The position numbers and the translations under genes were made by a program. 64,000 nt of DNA from Acididesulfobacillus acetoxydans. Its GTDB lineage: Bacteria > Bacillota > Desulfitobacteriia > Desulfitobacteriales > Desulfitobacteriaceae. Positions 9,027-33,914 of the stretch are shown here, piece by piece. Positions within the stretch are counted from its first letter, which is position 1. Every line of letters starts with the position of its first letter. The DNA lies in the NCBI RefSeq assembly GCF_902729405.1, contig NZ_LR746496.1, forward strand, positions 4,278,001 to 4,342,000, written 5' to 3'. The notes under the pieces were generated by a model. That model made no database searches. It saw only the letters and a program-made list of their open reading frames with translations, and was not told where the DNA came from.

Positions 9027-10094
9027 GTGAACAATCTCGAACAAGGGATCAACGGCACGGCGGCGAAGGCGCCCTACCACGCCATTCAACACAACCCGGA
9101 AAATATTCAGCTCACAGCGGCGGAAATCGGTCAACTGTGGACCATGTATTTGGCAGAAAGTATGGGAGCCTGCATGCTGCCCTACTTTGCGGCCACATCG
9201 AAAGACCCCGATATCCATGCGGTCTTACAGTTCGCGTTGGATGCCTCGGCCCGTCACGTTCAAACGATAACCGCTATCTTTGAGGCGGCTTATTTCCCCA
9301 TCCCCCATGGCTTTAGAGACGAGGATTTTGACGTGTCGGCCAAACCGCTTTATTCCGAGACGTTTATGCTCCTTTATACCACTCTAATGGCCAAGTACGC
9401 TATCCTGGGTTTTGGCCTCGCCTATACCAGTTCATCCCGTCCCGACGTGAGACAGTTCTTCGAGGGCTGTTTAAATGATTCGACGGCGATCAGCAAAAAG
9501 GGCCATGCCGTACTCCTGGCCAAAGGACTCCTTCCGAGAGCCGCCTATGTACCCATCCCCGACCGGGTCGAATATACTCATGACGTACAGGGTTTTTATA
9601 AGGGTTTAATCGGGGATAAAAGACCCCTCAATGCCCTGGAAATAGACCATCTTTTCGTCAATATTATCTCCAGATCTTTGAGAAATACCTTAACGACCGG
9701 CTTCGAACAGACCACAAAATCTAAATTGATTAAAGATTATTTGTCTCGCGGCCGCCTCATAAATGATAAACAGATCGACATCCTCTCTCAACTCTTGGAA
9801 GATGCCGACCTGTCCACCCTGCCAAACTACGACCACCTCGTCACAGAGTCCCTTGAGTCTCCTTTCAGTGACAAATTAATCCTGTTCCACTTTACGACGA
9901 TGACGGCTAATGCTATCGCGGCCGGAGGACTTGCTTTGTCGAACAGCACCCGGAGTGACATTATCTTGACCTTCGGCCGTTTTATCGCCGAACTGGGCGA
10001 CTTGGCTAAAGACGGCGTCAACCTGATGATTAAGCAAGGCTGGCTGGAAAGGGTTCCCGAAGCCGCGAATCGCAAAGAGCTGAGCACGCAATAA
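9027..10094 (+). CDS. DUF3231 family protein
   Basis: A 355-residue DUF3231 protein made of two similar alpha-helical halves (about 20-175 and 200-345). Each resembles a ferritin-like/CotF-type four-helix unit: LTAAEIGQLWTMYLAESMGA opens the first half and LNALEIDHLFVNIISRSLRN the second. The family is common in spore formers and is often linked to spore coats; the biochemical role is unknown. I choose the GTG at 9027 because CGGAG at 9012-9016 is correctly spaced; a GTG at 9018 lies too close to it. There is no operon partner and the gene sits between copies of a 27-nt repeat. The reading frame is intact. Confidence 0.8.
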   Translation: MNNLEQGINGTAAKAPYHAIQHNPENIQLTAAEIGQLWTMYLAESMGACMLPYFAATSKDPDIHAVLQFALDASARHVQTITAIFEAAYFPIPHGFRDEDFDVSAKPLYSETFMLLYTTLMAKYAILGFGLAYTSSSRPDVRQFFEGCLNDSTAISKKGHAVLLAKGLLPRAAYVPIPDRVEYTHDVQGFYKGLIGDKRPLNALEIDHLFVNIISRSLRNTLTTGFEQTTKSKLIKDYLSRGRLINDKQIDILSQLLEDADLSTLPNYDHLVTESLESPFSDKLILFHFTTMTANAIAAGGLALSNSTRSDIILTFGRFIAELGDLAKDGVNLMIKQGWLERVPEAANRKELSTQ

Positions 10095-10208
10095 TAGCTG
10101 CCGTCTCTGCATCGAGACTATGGCCCACCCGGATCTGCCTCGCCCTCCCTCTCAACCAGCCTCTAACCCTGTTCCCTATTTACTAGCTCCAATAGTCTTC
10201 TTAGGCTT

Positions 10209-10235
10209 CGGACATTATGCAGCGGCAGTAACCCT
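10209..10235. repeat. Imperfect 27-nt direct repeat, copy 2 (after the DUF3231 gene)
   Basis: Second copy of the repeat at 8854, in the same orientation, beginning cggacattatgcagcggcag. It lies about 115 nt after the DUF3231 stop codon. Confidence 0.6.
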
Positions 10236-10267
10236 GAATCGATAGCGCTTGTTGCAAAGTAGGGTGT

Positions 10268-10906
10268 CTAGCTACCCTTGCGTTTCTGAATCACAACTCT
10301 TTCGCCAAATTCTCCGTAGAAGTGATAACCGGAGCCCGCCTCAGCAAGAATATCCAAAAGCCCATCGGGACGGGTTACGACCGTCCCACCCAGAAGGTTT
10401 ACCCCCCGCTGAAAGAATGCCTCTGGAAGCATACTCGCTGTCGGTCCCACCACCACAATGTCGGCCTCCGGCTTGGTCAGCTTTAGTAAATCCTCCAGCG
10501 TATCATTGATTAGCGTGGTACCCGTGATGACAACGAGGTCAGCTGTAGGTAATACTTCCGGAGCCCGGTCCGTCGCTTTATAGAACGGCAATTCATCAGC
10601 TTTGAGGGTGACCGGGTCCATCTCCAAGATACAAAATTTATTCTTGCCTTTTTTGACCCTCTTTATAATTGGAGTCAAAGCACCCACGATTACAGTATAC
10701 CCTTCTTCAGGAAGGGTCAGCGTCTCGAACGCATCGACTCCATTTTTAATTACGTAGTCGAGTGGTGGCCGCAACTGCCAGCAGGTGGCAGACAACGCGT
10801 TGAGCACAGCAATTCCTAAAGCCTTTTTTAAGACTTTCCCCATGAACATTTCTTCAATAAAGTCAAGGACCTTTTTCCCTTTAAGTTGTCCCGATAAAGG
10901 CATCAT
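10268..10906 (-). CDS. DUF364 protein, putative heavy-metal chelation domain
   Basis: A 212-residue protein with a Rossmann-like DUF364 core: VIVGALTPIIKRVKKGKNKF, ADLVVITGTTLINDTLEDLL and VVGPTASMLPEAFFQRGVN. DUF364 is linked to metal handling, but no reaction is established. The N-terminal DUF4213 part seen in the paralogue at 38950 is shorter here, so the protein may be N-terminally trimmed. It lies 73 nt after the ECF S-component gene on the same strand and closes the riboswitch-led corrinoid locus. A small perfect hairpin (GTTCAGC-TAAA-GCTGAAC on the reverse strand, about 10931-10948) lies just upstream and lacks a T-run. Confidence 0.78.
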   Translation of the reverse strand: MMPLSGQLKGKKVLDFIEEMFMGKVLKKALGIAVLNALSATCWQLRPPLDYVIKNGVDAFETLTLPEEGYTVIVGALTPIIKRVKKGKNKFCILEMDPVTLKADELPFYKATDRAPEVLPTADLVVITGTTLINDTLEDLLKLTKPEADIVVVGPTASMLPEAFFQRGVNLLGGTVVTRPDGLLDILAEAGSGYHFYGEFGERVVIQKRKGS

Positions 10907-18200: not shown

Positions 18201-19633
18201 GTCAGAGTGGTTGTCCCTATCGGCTGTTGGGCCAGGTAGCTTTTGCTGATGGTTACAGTACTCCCATTAGCCGCTATCGAATAGTCGCTTCCTTCCGTCA
18301 ATAAAGTCGTGCCATTGGCTATATTGGTTAAACTCTCACTTCCGTAAACAGCCATTGTTACGGATATATCGGCTTGGTTAGCGGGATTCTTGTCAAAAGC
18401 AGCCGTCACCGGCGCAATAGTGCTGTTGTTCTCCTGGGGATTGCTTTCTTGTAACCGCTGCCAAACCGATTTTTTGGCGCATAGATCACCAAGGGCAATC
18501 AAGGATTGATAGGTGGCCATAGCGTCAGTTTTTCCAGGATTGTATGGAGAATAAAACGACCCGTCGCTTAACTGAAAACTAAGCAGGTCATCCAGCATTG
18601 TTTTCCCGTTCTTTTGCCAGCCAGCTGATAAAGGATCGGCGCCGACAGCTACCAAACCTGAAATGACCGTAGCATCACTATTGGGATTGTCGCTTCCCCA
18701 AGAGGCAAATCCTCCCGTAGCCTGTTGTATCTTCTTAAGGTAAGCTTCCGCTTTCTGGATAGCAACGGTTACACCGGCTGTCGTCTGATGGTTGGCCAGA
18801 GCTAACAGGGCCATTCCTGTATCATCCGGATCACTGGTATTGTAATCTTTTGAATAGAAAAAGCCTCCATCGAGATTTTGATAGGTCAACAAATTGGCAA
18901 CCGCTTTCTCTTGGTCATACGGTGTTTTTCCCGCATCCAGAGCTACCATCGCCCAGCTTTGGTCGTCTGAACTTGGGCCATAGGAACCTGGAAACGCGCC
19001 TGTACTGCTATCCTGTTTGGCCTTCAGTTCCGCTAAGAAGTTGCTCGGATTCACTCCCTTGGCCAAACTTCCCAAGATATTTCCATAAAGGCTGGCTTTA
19101 CTGCTGTCCCAATTCGTTTTAGTGCTATCTCCGGCACCCCAGAGTCCTACCATATCCCACCAAGATGTAGCATTACTATAATTTTGGCTTTTATAATAAT
19201 TTAGTACTTTCGTTAAACTCTTTAAATAAGCCGGCGCCGTGTCGGACACAACTATCTGTAAAGTTTGAGGATTCCCGGCACTGAAGTTGAAAGTCAGAGT
19301 GGTTGTCCCTATCGGCTGTTGGGCCAGGTAGCTTTTGCTGATGGTTACGGTACTCCCATTAGCCGCTATCGAATAGTCGCTTCCTGCCGTCAATAAAATC
19401 CCGCCATTGGCTATATTGGTTAAGGTCTCGCTTCCGTAAACAGCCATTACTACGGATATATCGGCTTGGTTAGCGGGATTCTTGTCAAAAGCAGCCGTCA
19501 CCGGCGTAATAGTGCTGTTCTGATTTGGTGCCGCATAAACTGGTTTCGCAAAAGGAGTCTGCACAACCAGCATGGACAGCGCCATAACAGCTATCAAAAG
19601 CCATGAATATAGATTTCGGAAGCTTTTTCTCAT
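15233..19633 (-). CDS. Giant secreted surface protein with terpenoid-cyclase-like, DUF4430, X2 and CWB2 domains
   Basis: A 1467-residue exported protein. The signal peptide (about 1-35) ends near AKPVYA. Then come an X2-type Ig-like domain (about 40-125, ITPVTAAFDKNPANQADISV); an alpha/alpha-barrel of prenyltransferase/terpenoid-cyclase repeats (about 130-395, DDTGMALLALANHQT); a near-copy of the X2 domain (about 405-500); DUF4430 (about 515-615, GPLSGWMFSVNGVYG); a Thr/Gly/Ser linker; a ZU5-like region (about 700-840); three CWB2 wall-anchoring repeats (about 850-1150, RYGGPDRYSTA, RYGGSDRYATA); and a second alpha/alpha-barrel (about 1180-1460). Barrel plus DUF4430 is the domain pair of human intrinsic factor and transcobalamin. 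ATG 19633 is preceded by GGAGAAAGGG. Predicted role: wall-bound corrinoid capture. Confidence 0.85.
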   Translation of the reverse strand: MRKSFRNLYSWLLIAVMALSMLVVQTPFAKPVYAAPNQNSTITPVTAAFDKNPANQADISVVMAVYGSETLTNIANGGILLTAGSDYSIAANGSTVTISKSYLAQQPIGTTTLTFNFSAGNPQTLQIVVSDTAPAYLKSLTKVLNYYKSQNYSNATSWWDMVGLWGAGDSTKTNWDSSKASLYGNILGSLAKGVNPSNFLAELKAKQDSSTGAFPGSYGPSSDDQSWAMVALDAGKTPYDQEKAVANLLTYQNLDGGFFYSKDYNTSDPDDTGMALLALANHQTTAGVTVAIQKAEAYLKKIQQATGGFASWGSDNPNSDATVISGLVAVGADPLSAGWQKNGKTMLDDLLSFQLSDGSFYSPYNPGKTDAMATYQSLIALGDLCAKKSVWQRLQESNPQENNSTIAPVTAAFDKNPANQADISVTMAVYGSESLTNIANGTTLLTEGSDYSIAANGSTVTISKSYLAQQPIGTTTLTFNFSAGNPQTLQIAVSDTTPAAGGGSSLPPIQNNITLSVTGKNGQVLLSPTTVPLESGDTAYSVLVRKLGQAQVTVSGSGSSIYVSGISGLKAGTDGPLSGWMFSVNGVYGSVSAAAAALKNGDVVAWRYTTNLGQDLGVPGYNNPGTGTGSATITPGTGGGTTTPVTSSGSNPSQPAKTNPVGSTESNSQRNQAALAVLNNVTAQQQAGASLPENTPAVNPAAAGQVVLRAVDGVQLRVPPGALNNQSAPVKFTVEIGKVTTPPQADTGAIVLDPLKYQRQFGIENSTGAVPEHSVQFKAPVIISFPVVSGDLPNGITTQQLAIYWWDTAKNDWVKLGGVFDPITKTISVPTYHLSTYAVMADSSSLPRRLAGTDRFLTADAVAAQGWKAGADNVVLVNAYAFPDALAAVPLAFKLNAPILLTEADTINPSTLAEIQKLKPKKITLIGGTAVISQAIQAEMEKTYGTDNVLRYGGPDRYSTAGLIAGALGTTGQAILANGDDYADALAVSSYAAYKGIPILFTKRTVLPDPTVQALAAQKVNSTLVVGGSSVVPAEITQRLPGVVRYGGSDRYATAAAIAQGLKLDTDQVYVVTGLDFADALTAGNLAAHSFSPVIMVDNTVPEATSGFLTAHKGAISDLVIVGGEGVISTDQENKIRALVPDLAQPQEGVISRQEVDETINGLVAWEKADIQRAFTQAAPGEIINPTVYNWPTVGLGRLNRYEGLPSYLAENEKYIAQDWNSVTQKVTDLARISLAVGAAGGDPRNFAGKDLIAEIANYPNVEAQGINGPIFALIALDSGDYNLPSNAPWTPDKLLKIILDKQLPDGGFSLDGTGASDPDITAMALQALAPFNTNSHPEVQVAVKKAVACLAALQDSKGGFKSGGIENSESISQVIIALSSLGMDIDTNPMFIKNNNSLLSALLQFRAADGGFKHLLTGNSDSTASEQALLALAAYERLKDGMSSLYDFRSGKTQTVPTSSVNVGD

Positions 19634-26343: not shown

Positions 26344-27011
26344 TCGTTACGTCCTCATAAATTGAAAACAGGATTTCAGGAAAACCTGCCGGTCGAAGTA
26401 CCTCAACCCCGACCGGCATTTCAATTAGCCCAACGCCTCCCGCACCTCAACCCACGCACTAAATATTTGTTCATCAACCGCTTCCAGCAACGTTTCCCTG
26501 CGGCTTAGCGTTTCCAAAATTCGTCAAACCTTTGTTTCAGGCCATTCGGTATTTCGTTGACCTTATCGTGCTCCAGCCTTTTCTTTCGGACTTCCTCCAT
26601 CTCAGCCGACAGGCTGACAATATCCTTTCAAACCCGCTGATAGCAAGGGCTTCAGCGTATAGCTCAATCGACGTCAACGTGAGGTGTCCGTGGAAACATA
26701 TCCGTTTCTTTCTCAAGTCTCCCGCGACGTGGGCTAACGAGATCGTCATCGCTATTCATCTCAAAGCGGAGCAAAACCCTCCGCGCTACGTTAACTCAGC
26801 TTTTCGACATTCTCCCCCATATTCCTGCCAATAACCCAGGAAGATTTGTACCTTCACACCATTCCTCACGGGGACCCGTCCCACGCAAGCGGCGGGTTCT
26901 GTGCATACGACACCTCTCGCAGATAAAAAATTGAAACCTATTCCGCAACCCCGCAATGTGCAGTAACCTGTGCACGAGGTTGTCTGGATGTCAACCAGAG
27001 CCGCCAACCCG
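26344..27011 (-). other. Unidentified degenerate coding remnants
   Basis: On the reverse strand a charged stretch reads LSAEMEEVRKKRLEHDKVNE followed by IPNGLKQRFDEFWKR. After a one-base shift it continues LSRRETLLEAVDEQIFSAW. This looks like the C-terminal coiled-coil of a mobile-element or plasmid protein, but I cannot name a family. A palindromic segment (gaaaacaggatttcaggaaaacctg, about 26363-26387) lies at its edge. The region adjoins the 315-bp repeat. Confidence 0.35.
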
Positions 27012-27326
27012 GTTCAATGCTCGCCAACGGTCCTTCGGCACCCTCTCGGGGTAGAAAGGCCACCTTCGGCGACCCCACCCCCACTGCAAATTTCCTGCAC
27101 CGGCTCACAATTTTTCCTTCTTTCGGATCTTTTCTGTATACCTGTTCCAGCGAAGCGTCGAGCACCGCAGCTATCTTGGCAATTCCACCGGGTTTCCCGT
27201 GCTCCAAATCTCGGGGCTTACCGGTGAAATGGAAAACGGCAGACTTAAAGCCCACCGTTTCACCATACAAGCCGCAGCAAGCGTTGGGTCGCTCTTCAGC
27301 GTTGCCCGATTTATGCTGCAATTAAA
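27012..27326. repeat. About 315-bp direct repeat, copy 1
   Basis: From gttcaatgctcgccaacggt to the final caattaaa this sequence is repeated in the same orientation at 30696-31008, with a few substitutions and one small gap near 27080. On the reverse strand both copies conserve a frame with GGIAKIAAVLDASLEQVYRK, which could be an eroded helix-turn-helix. Both copies lie at the breakpoint of another gene (PAP2 region, IS1182), so this is probably a mobile or recombination-linked sequence. Confidence 0.75.
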
Positions 27327-28811: not shown

Positions 28812-28841
28812 ATTAACAATACAACGATATAAATGAATAAT

Positions 28842-28939
28842 TCTCATCCAGAGTGGTGGAGGGACTGGCCCGATGAAACCCAGCAACCGGCCTTGAGGCA
28901 GTGGTGCTAATTCCTGCAGGATGTTCCTGGAAGATGAGT
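28842..28939 (+). ncRNA. SAM-I (S-box) riboswitch
   Basis: The conserved S-box blocks are present in order: CTCATCCAGAGTGGTGGAGG, GACTGGCCCGATGAAACCC, GCAACCGGCC, GGTGCTAATTCCTGCAGG and TGGAAGATGAG. It lies about 95 nt upstream of homoserine dehydrogenase and should turn that gene off when S-adenosylmethionine is plentiful. Confidence 0.96.
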
Positions 28940-28959
28940 TGAGCCAAGGGCTGTCTGTT

Positions 28960-29032: not shown

Positions 29033-30016
29033 TTGAGAAATGCTGATGTACGCGTGGGGCTACTGGGATTTGGAACTGTAGGGCAGGGACTTGTACAAGG
29101 GATTAATTTGCAGAGTAAGGAGATTAGTCGTCGAATTGGTGCCCCGTTGAAGATTGAAAGGGCCTTGGTTCAAGATGTTAAAAAGAAAAGACCCGTTAGT
29201 TTACCTGAATTATCCACTGATGCTCGCGATATTTTGGAAGATCCTGAAATAGATATTGTGGTGGAAGTCATGGGGGGAGAACATCCTGCCTATGCTTATG
29301 TGAAGCAGGCCTTGGAGCAAAGGAAACAGGTTGTCACAGCCAACAAGCTATTGCTTGCTTTACACGGCCTAGAGTTCAAAGCTCTGGCCCGCTTAACTGG
29401 GACCGGACTACTTTATGAAGGAAGCGTTTTGGGTGGAATTCCAATTTTGCGCACAATTCAACGGGGGCTTTGCGGAGATCGCGTTGAACAAATTGAAGGG
29501 ATTTTTAATGGCACCACAAACTTTATTTTAAGTCGGATGTATGATTTGGGTGAAGACTATCTGACGGCACTTCGTCTTGCCCAAGAAGCCGGGTATGCCG
29601 AAGCAGATCCCACAATGGATGTGAGCGGTTTCGATGCGGCCTGCAAATTGGTAATTCTCTCTCGAGAGTGTTTTAAGGTGGACGTTTGCCTTGAAGATGT
29701 GACGATTTCAGGAATCGAACACCTGGATAAACGACAAATTGCTCGGGAGAAAAAGTTGGGACGTATTCCCAAATTGATTGCCCGAGCTAAACCGCAAAAA
29801 GCGGCAATCAGAGTCGGAGTCGAATGGTTGCCCGATACAGATTTGTTAAGTCGAGTTGCGGGGGTCCAAAACGCGCTCTCTTTACGAACGCTGATAGTGG
29901 GTGAACTTTTCTGGAGAGGTCCTGGGGCAGGTGGATTGGCCACTGGGGGAGCGGTTTTGGCAGATGTTATGGAGGCAGCGGAGCGAGTTCTCATGGAACG
30001 CGATGAAACCTTTTAG
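29033..30016 (+). CDS. hom: Homoserine dehydrogenase, short form without ACT domain
   Basis: A 327-residue NAD(P)-dependent homoserine dehydrogenase, which reduces aspartate semialdehyde to homoserine for methionine and threonine. The dinucleotide site is VGLLGFGTVGQGL (about 8-20). The family signature follows at GIFNGTTNFILSRM and the active-site region at AGYAEADPTMDVSGFDAACK, with catalytic Asp and Lys. Classical bacterial enzymes are about 430 residues with a C-terminal ACT domain; this one lacks ACT, so threonine feedback is unlikely. It starts at TTG 29033, eight nt after GAGGAGG. The SAM-I riboswitch upstream shows it is controlled as a methionine gene. It appears to be transcribed alone. 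Confidence 0.93.
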   Translation: MRNADVRVGLLGFGTVGQGLVQGINLQSKEISRRIGAPLKIERALVQDVKKKRPVSLPELSTDARDILEDPEIDIVVEVMGGEHPAYAYVKQALEQRKQVVTANKLLLALHGLEFKALARLTGTGLLYEGSVLGGIPILRTIQRGLCGDRVEQIEGIFNGTTNFILSRMYDLGEDYLTALRLAQEAGYAEADPTMDVSGFDAACKLVILSRECFKVDVCLEDVTISGIEHLDKRQIAREKKLGRIPKLIARAKPQKAAIRVGVEWLPDTDLLSRVAGVQNALSLRTLIVGELFWRGPGAGGLATGGAVLADVMEAAERVLMERDETF

Positions 30017-30327: not shown

Positions 30328-30695
30328 ATGTTGCGGACAGACAATCAGATGAAATTATCAGAATATGGAAATCTATACGATGTCGTGGTGCCAAAGGATA
30401 ATCTGCTCAGGAAAATCAAAGAAAACATAGATTTCGGCTTTGTAAATCCAATGTTAAAGAAACAATACTGTGAAGCTTTTGGCAGACCGGCGAAAGAGCC
30501 GGAGATGATGTTCAAGATCATGTTCTTAAAGCGCATGTACGATATGTCTGATGAGATATTGGTGGACAATTTGGGCTATAATATGGCATTCAAATACTTT
30601 ATCGGTCTTGATCCCGAAGATGATACGATAGATCCGAGTCTGCTCACAAAATTCCGCAAGACACGTATTACCGAAGACATCTTAGAGGAAATGCT
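30328..30695 (+). pseudogene. IS1182-family transposase, N-terminal fragment
   Basis: GGGCTTGGGAA precedes the ATG. The product has the DUF772-type N-terminus: DVVVPKDNLLRKIKENIDFG, then CEAFGRPAKEPEMMFKIMFL and DPEDDTIDPSLLTKFRK. Similarity to IS1182 transposases ends at EDILEEML, where the 315-bp repeat (30696-31008) begins. The DDE catalytic domain is lost, so the element cannot move by itself. Confidence 0.8.
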
Positions 30696-31008
30696 GTTCA
30701 ATGCTCCCCAACGGTCCTTCGGCACCCTCTCCGGGTAGAAAGGCTACCTTCGGTGACCCCACCATTTCGAATTTTCCCGCACCGGCTCACAATTTTTCCT
30801 TCCTTCGGATCTTTTCTGTATACCTGTTCCAGCGACGCGTCGAGCACCGCAGCTATCTTGGCAATTCCACCGGGTTTCCCGTGCTCCAAATCTCGGGACT
30901 TACTGGTGAAATGGAAAACGGTAGACTTAAAGCCCACCGTTTCACCATACAAGCCGCAGCAAGCGTTGGGTCGCTCCTCAGCGTTGCCCGATTTATGCTG
31001 CAATTAAA
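30696..31008. repeat. About 315-bp direct repeat, copy 2
   Basis: Same sequence and orientation as 27012-27326. Here it truncates an IS1182 transposase on its left and ends eight nt before the stop codon of the radical SAM gene on its right. Confidence 0.75.
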
Positions 31009-31015
31009 CTAATAG

Positions 31016-32050
31016 TCAGGGAACAATCGTAAATCCCAGCTCCTGATACTGTTTTTTCAACACATCCATAGTATTCCGGAACTCCATGTCGCCCTGATAT
31101 TGGAATCCGTCTTCCGGTGCGCCTTTTTTCCAGTTAGGAGTACGATTGATATGCACTCCTCCAACTTTATTGCCAGTGCCGGCCATCAGCGGCGTTGGAT
31201 AATCATGCGGGCTCCATCCCGCCGCAGAGCTAATATCGATATCTCTTAATACCAGGCGCATGACAGCGATCAGTCTTGCCGCTTCCCAGGCAGAACAGGC
31301 GGGAAATCCCTCCATCGGGATGCCTTTGAAAGGCATAAACTTGGTAACATAGACTCGCCTCAGGTGTTCGTATTGCCTAATTTGAAAAATGAAGTCGACA
31401 TAATCCTGATACTTGGTTTCTTCGGGACTTAAGCCAGCCATGATTCCCGTGTGCAACTCCAGGCCAGCCTCCCCGATCCGATTCGCAAACCGTTTTTTGG
31501 CCTCCAGATCGTCACCCGGCTTGGTCCTGCGAAAAACATCGGGATTCACAGTCTCAAAGACAGAGCTAACCAGGAAAACACCTAGTTTTTTCAACTCCTT
31601 GAGGGTTTCCAGCGACATGGCCGCTCCGCAGTTAACCTGGATAGCCAGATCGTCAAAGCCGGCATCCCTGATCGCCTGTACGATGTGCAGGACATCGCGG
31701 CCTTCGCTGCCCAGAGTGGTACCACCGCTCAGATGAAACTCCCTGATGCCATGCTGCTTGATGTAGGCTGTACCTTTCAAGATCTCCTCAATACTTAGCG
31801 GCTTCAGTCCGTTTTCCCGCCAGTAGGGGCAGTACAGACAGAGCGGCCTCAAGTTGCACCTGAGTACCCTGGCAATACCAGCGCTCCATCTAAAGATGTT
31901 GCCCCGCGAATGCTCACGAACGAACCTGGCCGTCTTCAGCAGCTCTTCAGCTTTTTCCTCGTCCTCTGTCTTCTGGAACAGATACAGGGCTTCCTCCGGT
32001 TTAATTACTTCCGTCCTGCTCTTGTGCAAAATTTCTTCAAAACGACTCAT
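31016..32050 (-). CDS. HmdB/BioB-like radical SAM protein
   Basis: A 344-residue radical SAM enzyme. The cluster-binding motif reads CNLRPLCLYC (about residue 69-78), Cys-X5-Cys-X2-Cys, which differs from the usual CX3CX2C and is the spacing known from HmdB, a protein linked to FeGP-cofactor synthesis. Further blocks fit the BioB/HydE/PylB barrel: FHLSGGTTLGSEGRDVL, QVNCGAAMSLETLKEL, ELHTGIMAGLSPEET and VTKFMPFKGIPMEGFP. The gene's ATG overlaps the TGA of the upstream BtuF-like gene by four nt (ATGA), so the two are translationally coupled. The product is unknown; this could be assembly of a metallo- or organo-cofactor. The reading frame is complete. Confidence 0.85.
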   Translation of the reverse strand: MSRFEEILHKSRTEVIKPEEALYLFQKTEDEEKAEELLKTARFVREHSRGNIFRWSAGIARVLRCNLRPLCLYCPYWRENGLKPLSIEEILKGTAYIKQHGIREFHLSGGTTLGSEGRDVLHIVQAIRDAGFDDLAIQVNCGAAMSLETLKELKKLGVFLVSSVFETVNPDVFRRTKPGDDLEAKKRFANRIGEAGLELHTGIMAGLSPEETKYQDYVDFIFQIRQYEHLRRVYVTKFMPFKGIPMEGFPACSAWEAARLIAVMRLVLRDIDISSAAGWSPHDYPTPLMAGTGNKVGGVHINRTPNWKKGAPEDGFQYQGDMEFRNTMDVLKKQYQELGFTIVP

Positions 32051-33117
32051 TGTTGCACCACCTCATTAATCTCCGCAGGAGTAATTTGATAGTTAAAGAA
32101 TAGCTGGTAGAATTGTTTCATTTGTCGGTCGAAAGACGTCATGTTGTTGGGATGAAGCAGGATGTCCTGTGTCCAGACCAAGCCCATGATCGCCGAAATC
32201 CCATCCGTATTGCCGTAGCGCGGCCTGACATAAACCCGGTTGTTTTTCACGGCACTGATGCATTGCCAGCCGGGACCGGTCATAATCTGCTGCTTTTCTG
32301 CTTCGCTTCCGGTCAAGATGACCTGGGGATTCCATTTGATCACTTGTTCCATGGAGACGGGAGTGTTTTCATTGTTAGACCCCGGAAGGCTGTCTCCAAC
32401 ATTGAGTCCACCAGCCGTATCAATAATCGATGCCATAATCGATTGCGGGTCGGGGGTAGTTAAGATCTCCTTGTTGGCATAATACACGCGTAGCTTTTGA
32501 CTTTGGGGAATCTTAGACGCGATGTTTTTTACTGACTGTAGAGTATTTACCCAGTAATCAGCCAGTTTGTTCGCCTCAGTCTCGTTACCAACGATTTGGC
32601 CGATCATCCGAATCGAAGGTGGATAGTCCTGCAATGCATCTTTTGCAAAGCAAATAACAGGTTTCCCGATCTGATTAGCAAACTGGTTCAGTTTCGGATG
32701 GCGCACAATCGTGATCACTACATCGGGGTTTAGGGTGATAATCTGTTCCGGGTCAACCCCACTGAAGAAAACTCCTGTCACTGGCAATTTCCGCAGCTTA
32801 GCCACATCTGCAGCGGAAAAACATTGCATGCTGCCGGGCTTCAGATACTCTTGATTAAACAGCTTGTCCACACTGACCAACTTATTCGGCGCCAATCTCC
32901 AAAGCAGGTAGGTGGCGACGGGATGCAGGGCCAGAATATGTTGCACGTTTTTAGGTACCGTCACGTGGCGACCCGCCATATCCGTGATGGTATGATGCGT
33001 TGCGCTGACCTGGCTATTGGCCGCAAAAGAACCATTCCTACTGCATCCGGTAAGAACCAGAATCAGCAGGACCACCAAAGCCACACATAAAATAGAGTAG
33101 TTTTCCTTCTTTTTCAT
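32047..33117 (-). CDS. BtuF/FepB-type ABC transporter substrate-binding lipoprotein
   Basis: A 356-residue periplasmic-binding-protein homologue of the class III (FhuD/BtuF) fold. It has a lipoprotein signal with lipobox LVLTGC near residue 20-25, so it is tethered outside the membrane. The domain shows TDMAGRHVTVPKNVQHILAL, EQIITLNPDVVITIVR and EQVIKWNPQVILTGSEAEKQ, typical for binders of iron-siderophores, haem or cobalamin. The ATG at 33117 is preceded by AGAGGA. No permease or ATPase gene is adjacent, so it must serve a distant transporter. Coupling to the radical SAM gene suggests that the imported ligand and the enzyme's product are related. Confidence 0.85.
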   Translation of the reverse strand: MKKKENYSILCVALVVLLILVLTGCSRNGSFAANSQVSATHHTITDMAGRHVTVPKNVQHILALHPVATYLLWRLAPNKLVSVDKLFNQEYLKPGSMQCFSAADVAKLRKLPVTGVFFSGVDPEQIITLNPDVVITIVRHPKLNQFANQIGKPVICFAKDALQDYPPSIRMIGQIVGNETEANKLADYWVNTLQSVKNIASKIPQSQKLRVYYANKEILTTPDPQSIMASIIDTAGGLNVGDSLPGSNNENTPVSMEQVIKWNPQVILTGSEAEKQQIMTGPGWQCISAVKNNRVYVRPRYGNTDGISAIMGLVWTQDILLHPNNMTSFDRQMKQFYQLFFNYQITPAEINEVVQQ

Positions 33118-33621
33118 AATCATTCCTCTCGTTTCGCTCAAGGCAAAAACGTAACAAAACGCATTGGTATTGAGCTGTTTTTACTACTCTCCCGTCATAT
33201 GGATAACGGTTAATTACAATTCGCTGGATAGTGAGCAGGCCGCTTCAGTATTGGGATAACAGCGCTTTTATATGTGTTTTATCCACGGATTATTGTTCAC
33301 CTCCATTATCTGTTCCGCTTAATTAGATACCTGTTCTCCAGTCCCTTCTGAGGGCTTGGTTGCGTTCGGCAACCACGCTGGTCTCCTAGACTCCAGCATT
33401 TGTCTTAAACACTAAACCACCCTTAACCGATCATCCTACCAGCAGAGGCATACACGTTTCCCACCCACCCGACTAAGCCACTGATCGAAACAGCAGCTCC
33501 CGCGCACCTCAAAGGGAAAGAAAGAACAAAAGCTGGCCACGGTTAAAAGTAGGAGGTCTCCGCCTTTTGCTCTTTGCTTTCTCCAACACACATTCACCTC
33601 CCTCCTCTTTGGGCAATTAAA
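33118..33621. other. Long leader upstream of the BtuF-like gene
   Basis: No known gene. On the reverse strand a second good ribosome site, GAGGAGGGAGG near 33600, precedes a 26-codon frame. A hairpin GGTTGCCGAACGCAACC is near 33360. No riboswitch class that I know fits. Confidence 0.4.
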
Positions 33622-33673
33622 CTAAAAAGCGACACCACTACAAAAAGAGTGGTATCGCTAAAAATACTACCAT
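33622..33673 (-). promoter_or_regulatory. Leader peptide overlapping a terminator hairpin
   Basis: On the reverse strand AAAGGAGGT is followed by ATG and 11 codons (MVVFLAIPLFL, 33638-33673). The coding part is also one arm of the hairpin AGCGATACCACT-CTTTTTGT-AGTGGTGTCGCT followed by TTTTTAGTTT (to 33622). A translated short ORF inside a terminator is the layout of an attenuator. It lies about 500 nt upstream of the BtuF-like gene. Confidence 0.55.
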
Positions 33674-33914
33674 GAACTTACCACCTCCTTTTCAAACGTG
33701 AAGGCATATCCGTTTCCAGACATACCCTGAGGGCTATGCGCCCTGGCCGGTTACCGTAGAATTAACTTTAGGTGAACTCGGCTCGGAGTGAAACCTATTC
33801 AGTTGTCCCGCCACGAAAAAATACGAAGCAATCTCCAGCTAACTAAGCCTATCATAAGCCAACTACAAACCGCTGTCAACTCCGTTATTTACCCAACGGC
33901 CGGTCGGAGTATTG

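Follow-up and report, generated by a model that had tools for sequence, protein, structure and literature searches.

The radical SAM enzyme and the class III substrate-binding lipoprotein studied here, whose genes are translationally coupled, lie behind a molybdenum cofactor (Moco) riboswitch, and the system they form is very probably tied to molybdenum. We tentatively favour, with a probability of roughly 40%, a module that would be switched on when Moco is scarce, would import an organic molybdenum complex and would act on the ligand of that complex through an HcgA-like radical enzyme. The earlier note on this DNA included neither the riboswitch nor a second operon of the same genome with a paralogous enzyme. 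Positions without a locus name refer to the window, that is, the whole stretch of 64,000 nucleotides that was analysed (Table 1).

Results

The two genes share a stop/start ATGA, and a GAGGTGG Shine-Dalgarno sequence stands just 5' of the second gene of the pair, that of the radical SAM enzyme. The enzyme carries its motif as C65-NLRPL-C71-LY-C74, so that the CX5CX2C spacing (CNLRPLCLYC) and the overlap with a class III lipoprotein, which the earlier note had pointed out, are both confirmed from sequence; the three motif cysteines are invariant in 25/25 aligned family members. Pfam recognises Radical_SAM (PF04055, E 7.8e-16) in the enzyme and Peripla_BP_2 (PF01497, E 6.9e-23) in the lipoprotein, whose lipobox cysteine is C25 (LTGC). 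No permease or ATPase adjoins the pair, which is flanked downstream by a truncated insertion-sequence region and upstream by the riboswitch leader.

The pair is not restricted to its own genome. CEB3 (Peptococcaceae), the nearest relative, has an orthologous pair with the same overlap (identity 89% and 83%), and the -3 gap between the two genes is found both there and in the distant genome G353, where lipoprotein and radical SAM genes again overlap by ATGA (L076 8467-9561 / 9558-10613). Because of this ortholog pair and of the recurrence in a distant genome, the pairing with overlap is not a matter of chance.

Several other elements were seen in the vicinity of the pair or elsewhere in its genome. 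Near-identical ORFs (MQHKSGNAEERPNACCGLYGE...) at 26938-27321 and 30698-31003, the latter separating the pair from a transposase-like fragment (30328-30738), are repeated, probably mobile sequence. A SAM riboswitch at 28841-28940 (+) lies just 5' of a homoserine-dehydrogenase-like ORF (29033-30016). In the same genome, L003 1501-1596 (C1:4435492-4435587) encodes, with no full ORF, a fragment of 32 residues that shares 84% identity with the window enzyme over its residues 135-166, an apparent gene remnant.

Table 1. Positions of the main features in the window and at related loci.
Feature	Position	Strand	Basis or contig
Radical SAM enzyme, HmdB/HcgA-like, clade A, 344 aa	31016..32050	(-)	Pfam Radical_SAM, TIGR03957
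CX5CX2C [4Fe-4S] motif, CNLRPLCLYC	31829..31858	(-)	from translation
ATGA stop/start overlap, lipoprotein gene/radical SAM gene	32047..32050	(-)	sequence
Class III (BtuF/MolA-type) substrate-binding lipoprotein, 356 aa	32047..33117	(-)	Pfam PF01497, lipobox LTGC
Intrinsic terminator (expression platform), directly 3' of aptamer	33624..33659	(-)	hairpin + T-run
Molybdenum cofactor riboswitch aptamer RF01055, P3 stem present	33669..33800	(-)	cmscan
G353 operon: lipoprotein, radical SAM (ATGA overlap), FecCD permease, ATPase	L076 8467-12472	(+)	contig 31
G431 CX5CX2C HmdB-like enzyme in nickel operon	L075 4005-5048	(-)	contig 252
Nitrogenase-like genes (divergent; NifE/N/BchB-like or NifHDK-like)	L086 2828-5466; L082 11849-14322; L012 537-4262; L083 17295-19299		

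The enzyme is HmdB-like, as had been noticed from its sequence. Its best NCBIfam match is TIGR03957 (HmdB/HcgA; 130.6 bits, E 6.9e-38), which leads the other matches by about 70 bits, PylB being next with 58, and the same family is the nearest curated one for 25/25 members scored individually. The cut-off of TIGR03957, 320.9 bits, is reached by 0/25 of these members, which score about 90-222 bits (the highest 221.8 bits, E 1.2e-65). Membership of PylB, HydE or BioB is rejected (51-58 bits, other motif spacing), and a tree, built without true HcgA sequences, splits the CX5 group from PylB at 100/100 support. In the structure comparison proposed in the earlier note, the AF2 model (pLDDT 92.1) has BioB (E 5.4e-19), HydE and PylB as its top Foldseek matches. 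With HcgA/HmdB, the radical SAM enzyme that forms the FeGP pyridinol, the family members share the CX5CX2C motif and a fold of the BioB/HydE/PylB type; they differ from it in the lower score, in the absence of hmd from the family genomes, and in being tied to class III importers and to the Moco riboswitch. Hmd itself (PF03201) was found in 0/46 family genomes, M. jannaschii serving as a positive control. On both counts, score and Hmd, the connection to the FeGP cofactor that the earlier note had drawn is not supported.

The riboswitch lies ~550 bases upstream of the lipoprotein gene, on the same strand. Its cmscan score is 70.6 bits (E 5.2e-15; gathering score 36), the match covering the full model, 1-135, and a P3 hairpin, AGGGC/GCCCU, can be read from the alignment. 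The terminator that follows consists of the hairpin AGCGATACCACTC..TAGTGGTGTCGCT and a T-run (-19.6 kcal/mol). Copies of the motif that bear P3 go with molybdenum and those lacking it with tungsten, and the E. coli motif is an OFF switch when Moco is made (PMC2408646). With P3 present, tungsten in place of molybdenum is disfavoured. Because a P3-type Moco riboswitch and an intrinsic terminator precede the genes, read-through would be expected only at low Moco. The aptamer is kept in CEB3 and followed there by a comparable hairpin, as it is in the second operon of the window genome (hereafter operon 2). Between terminator and lipoprotein start, the leader in the window (33120-33530) is ~300 bases longer than in CEB3.

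This arrangement is recurrent. The window genome has five copies of RF01055, standing before genes for ModA, a MoeA-like protein, PII with MoaA, the window pair and operon 2. RF01055 is found upstream on the same strand at 16/21 family loci with an intact gene, the outliers G353 and G431 being excluded (window, L007, L009/L078, L010, L012, L073, L074, L077, L079, L081-L082-L088, L083, L084, L085, L086, L103 and L104). We estimate the chance of a same-strand copy within 10 kb upstream of a random gene of the window genome at ~0.5% (5 copies in 4.5 Mb). The contigs of the other five loci (L011, L069, L080, L087, L102) stop close to the operon; at L069, ~1.2 kb of upstream sequence contain no riboswitch. 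At L079, two tandem Moco riboswitches (19040-19170 and 19451-19584, both (-)) lie upstream of one HmdB-like operon. In the Moco riboswitch regulon described by Regulski 2008, RF01055 with a P3 stem likewise precedes genes for molybdenum transport and for the synthesis of Moco. As the word 'radical' is absent from its main text, the paper names no radical SAM enzyme there as a target (PMC2408646).

Matches of the lipoprotein among PDB sequences include MolA (3psa, E 3e-12), and its model (pLDDT 82.1) has 4pag, 4ovk and 3psa as the top three of Foldseek (MolA: Foldseek E 3.7e-20, 21% identity). Iron and siderophore binders come close behind and, because they score similarly, the fold does not settle the ligand. 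A vitamin B12 role is disfavoured: the BtuF model gives 31.5 bits against a cut-off of 234, and the leader holds a Moco, not a cobalamin, riboswitch. The class III molybdate importer MolBC-A (HI1470-1472) resembles the window system in its class III binding-protein fold and its molybdenum-linked regulation, whereas the window lipoprotein is ~21% identical to MolA, stands apart from a permease and ATPase, and is paired with a radical SAM enzyme. We know of no radical SAM partner of MolBC-A.

A binding lipoprotein is the direct same-strand neighbour of 21/27 enzymes. Among the 16 pairs with the lipoprotein upstream, the distances between enzymes follow those between lipoproteins (Mantel r 0.77, 0/5000 permutations as high). 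When 46 lipoproteins from these loci are placed in a tree, the eight whose genes immediately precede that of a clade A (window-type) enzyme group in an exclusive 100/100 clade, and two encoded downstream of clade A enzymes fall outside it. The coupling to a BtuF-type lipoprotein described in the earlier note is real and conserved and, judged by sequence, the two proteins are co-diversifying, as would be expected if both saw the same small molecule; in part, this could instead reflect the common history that adjacent genes have.

The distribution of the enzyme family is sporadic and accessory: it occurs in 10/83 genomes of the class, 7/398 sampled in the phylum, 6/63 in the class of G096 and 1/154 in that of G353. 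Seven related loci came from the genome collection. Operon 2, which runs from C1:635226 onwards, is complete and encodes a FecCD permease, a lipoprotein, TrmO, DUF364, an ATPase, a CX5CX2C enzyme 37% identical to that of the window, a further lipoprotein, a ModA-like binding protein and a second DUF364. Because it encodes a permease and an ATPase, the window pair can borrow them, and may in fact use them. The claim that the pair comes without permease or ATPase holds only locally, since operon 2 and most related operons supply both.

The recurrent partners in the operons are class III permeases and ATPases, several binding proteins, FmdE, DUF364, TrmO, MoeA, ModA and ModD, together with UbiE-type and dimerising O-methyltransferase-type enzymes; ModABC is also among the genes of related operons. 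Many of these labels are putative: they rest on BLASTP to reference proteins whose names we assigned by their sequence, a part of them checked against Pfam or NCBIfam. The fullest case is that of Desulfosporosinus BRH_c37, in which a superlocus of ~40 kb holds three HmdB-like enzymes, five riboswitch copies and two modABC sets, as well as modD, FmdE, DUF364, TrmO and class III importers. Genes for nitrogenase-like proteins belong to the operon itself at two loci, L086 and L082, and adjoin it at two others, L012 and L083; all of the component 1 nitrogenase-like proteins tested score below the curated nitrogenase cut-offs. No exporter was recognised in the operon maps, in which part of the ORFs were domain-searched. 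At L015 10001-10572 (Desulfosporosinus SRJS8), a match to enzyme residues 154-343 only is possibly a decayed copy, placed between mod-type and nitrogenase-type genes. We found no description of HmdB-like enzymes in molybdenum operons in the open-licence papers that were searched.

Two distant CX5CX2C relatives, in G353 and G431, stand where no Moco riboswitch was found. The first belongs to a minimal operon of lipoprotein, radical SAM enzyme, permease and ATPase. The second is encoded with LarB (174 bits, against a cut-off of 175), LarE, LarC1/C2, CbiM/CbiO-like transport and a NikA/CntA-like binding protein; this nickel-pincer (LarBCE)/Nik uptake operon, like the window system, combines metal uptake with a CX5CX2C HmdB-like enzyme, but it differs in its metal, nickel rather than molybdenum, in the type of its binding protein and in having no Moco riboswitch. 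Both outliers suggest a wider metal-linked enzyme lineage.

Discussion

In the reading that we favour, low Moco would permit transcription through the terminator and expression of the pair. The lipoprotein would capture organic or otherwise ligated molybdenum and pass it to a class III permease and ATPase, those of operon 2, and a 5'-deoxyadenosyl radical generated by the HcgA-like enzyme, encoded on the same message, would then, we infer, attack the imported ligand. Molybdenum would thereby be freed for Moco synthesis, MoeA being sometimes encoded in the same operons, and where a genome has two or three enzyme/lipoprotein pairs, each could serve different ligands. The proposal of the earlier note, that something is imported and then modified, is thus retained as the favoured idea without the link to FeGP, the object now being a molybdenum ligand.

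Import followed by processing would be the molybdenum counterpart of the anaerobic heme uptake operons with HutW/ChuW/HmuW, in which the genes of a metal-complex importer are likewise accompanied by one for a metal-freeing radical SAM enzyme. One study describes HmuW, in the heme uptake operon of Fusobacterium, as opening the imported porphyrin and freeing its iron (PMC10404700). The analogy concerns only how the systems would work: HmuW belongs to the class C radical SAM methyltransferases and acts on heme, whereas the window enzyme is HmdB-like and presumably molybdenum-regulated, and its best 25 NCBIfam matches, headed by HmdB/PylB/BioB/HydE, include no HutW/ChuW/HmuW family. The system is best described as a metal importer that has a radical SAM enzyme of its own as partner.

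Besides the precedent of HmuW, import and processing of a molybdenum complex is supported by the frequency of the riboswitch among related loci and in the window genome itself, its P3 stem, the molybdenum superlocus of BRH_c37, the likeness of the lipoprotein to MolA, the co-diversification, the minimal operon of G353 and the lack of a recognised exporter. Other observations pull in the opposite direction. HcgA, the nearest characterised relative, makes a ligand and does not break one (PMC10100467); the methyltransferases and nitrogenase-like proteins of several operons would suit biosynthesis equally; the molybdate that MolA takes is free and bound with low affinity (PMC4031551), so that the lipoprotein may need no organic ligand; the related enzymes of G353 and G431 lack the riboswitch; and the Mantel test only partly separates pairing from shared species history.

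The main rival is the synthesis of a chelator, because HcgA makes a pyridinol and methyltransferases are encoded in several operons. Here the HcgA-like enzyme would make a heterocyclic, pyridinol-like ligand that is methylated by the methyltransferases of the operons and exported, binds molybdenum and returns via the class III importer. Such a route would parallel the formation by HcgA, from a substrate still open as of a 2022 paper, of 6-carboxymethyl-5-methyl-4-hydroxy-2-pyridinol, which is then C-methylated (PMC10100467). It would also agree with the methyltransferase genes in many of the operons and with the distant family member in a nickel uptake/nickel-pincer operon with its NikA/CntA-like binding protein. 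However, it would call for an exporter, and none was recognised in the operons, and methyltransferases are missing from the window pair and from the operon of G353; we regard chelator synthesis as rather unlikely.

We consider it improbable that the enzyme builds or modifies an intracellular molybdenum or organometallic cofactor, perhaps for nitrogenase-like proteins, with the importer supplying molybdenum or a precursor. The functions of HmdB, of HydE and of the Lar-linked homologue are all tied to metal cofactors, and nitrogenase-like subunits are found in or next to several operons, but we saw none encoded in the two operons of the window genome, and clade A has a single conserved and dedicated partner, a lipoprotein outside the cell. 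A plain molybdate importer, with a lipoprotein that binds molybdate in the manner of MolA and a radical SAM enzyme that is a loosely associated passenger unrelated to transport, would explain the similarity to MolA; that the two genes stay adjacent, are translationally coupled and co-diversify across families makes it a poor candidate. Finally, a role in FeGP cofactor or [Fe]-hydrogenase biosynthesis, suggested by the motif and the TIGR03957 match, is rejected given the scores of all members below the cut-off, the lack of Hmd in the family genomes and the predicted control by a Moco riboswitch.

To our knowledge, how anaerobes acquire molybdenum when it is scarce or complexed is poorly understood. 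The occurrence of the pair under a Moco riboswitch, here and in other anaerobes, points to an undescribed route to obtain or process this metal. Through the riboswitch, an enzyme family known from one methanogen cofactor pathway is now linked to molybdenum acquisition, which names the class of ligand to seek, and its relatives in bacteria, outside the methanogens, open another way to the substrate of HcgA. That the same lineage also occurs in a nickel operon suggests that HcgA-like chemistry is used more widely in the handling of metals. It is quite possible that the HcgA-type radical SAM family serves metal acquisition outside methanogens, each enzyme making or dismantling a ligand for a co-evolving lipoprotein, with molybdenum as the metal here and nickel in the Lar-linked branch. 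If this is true, anaerobes would possess a dedicated, so far undescribed chemistry for the uptake of molybdenum complexes.
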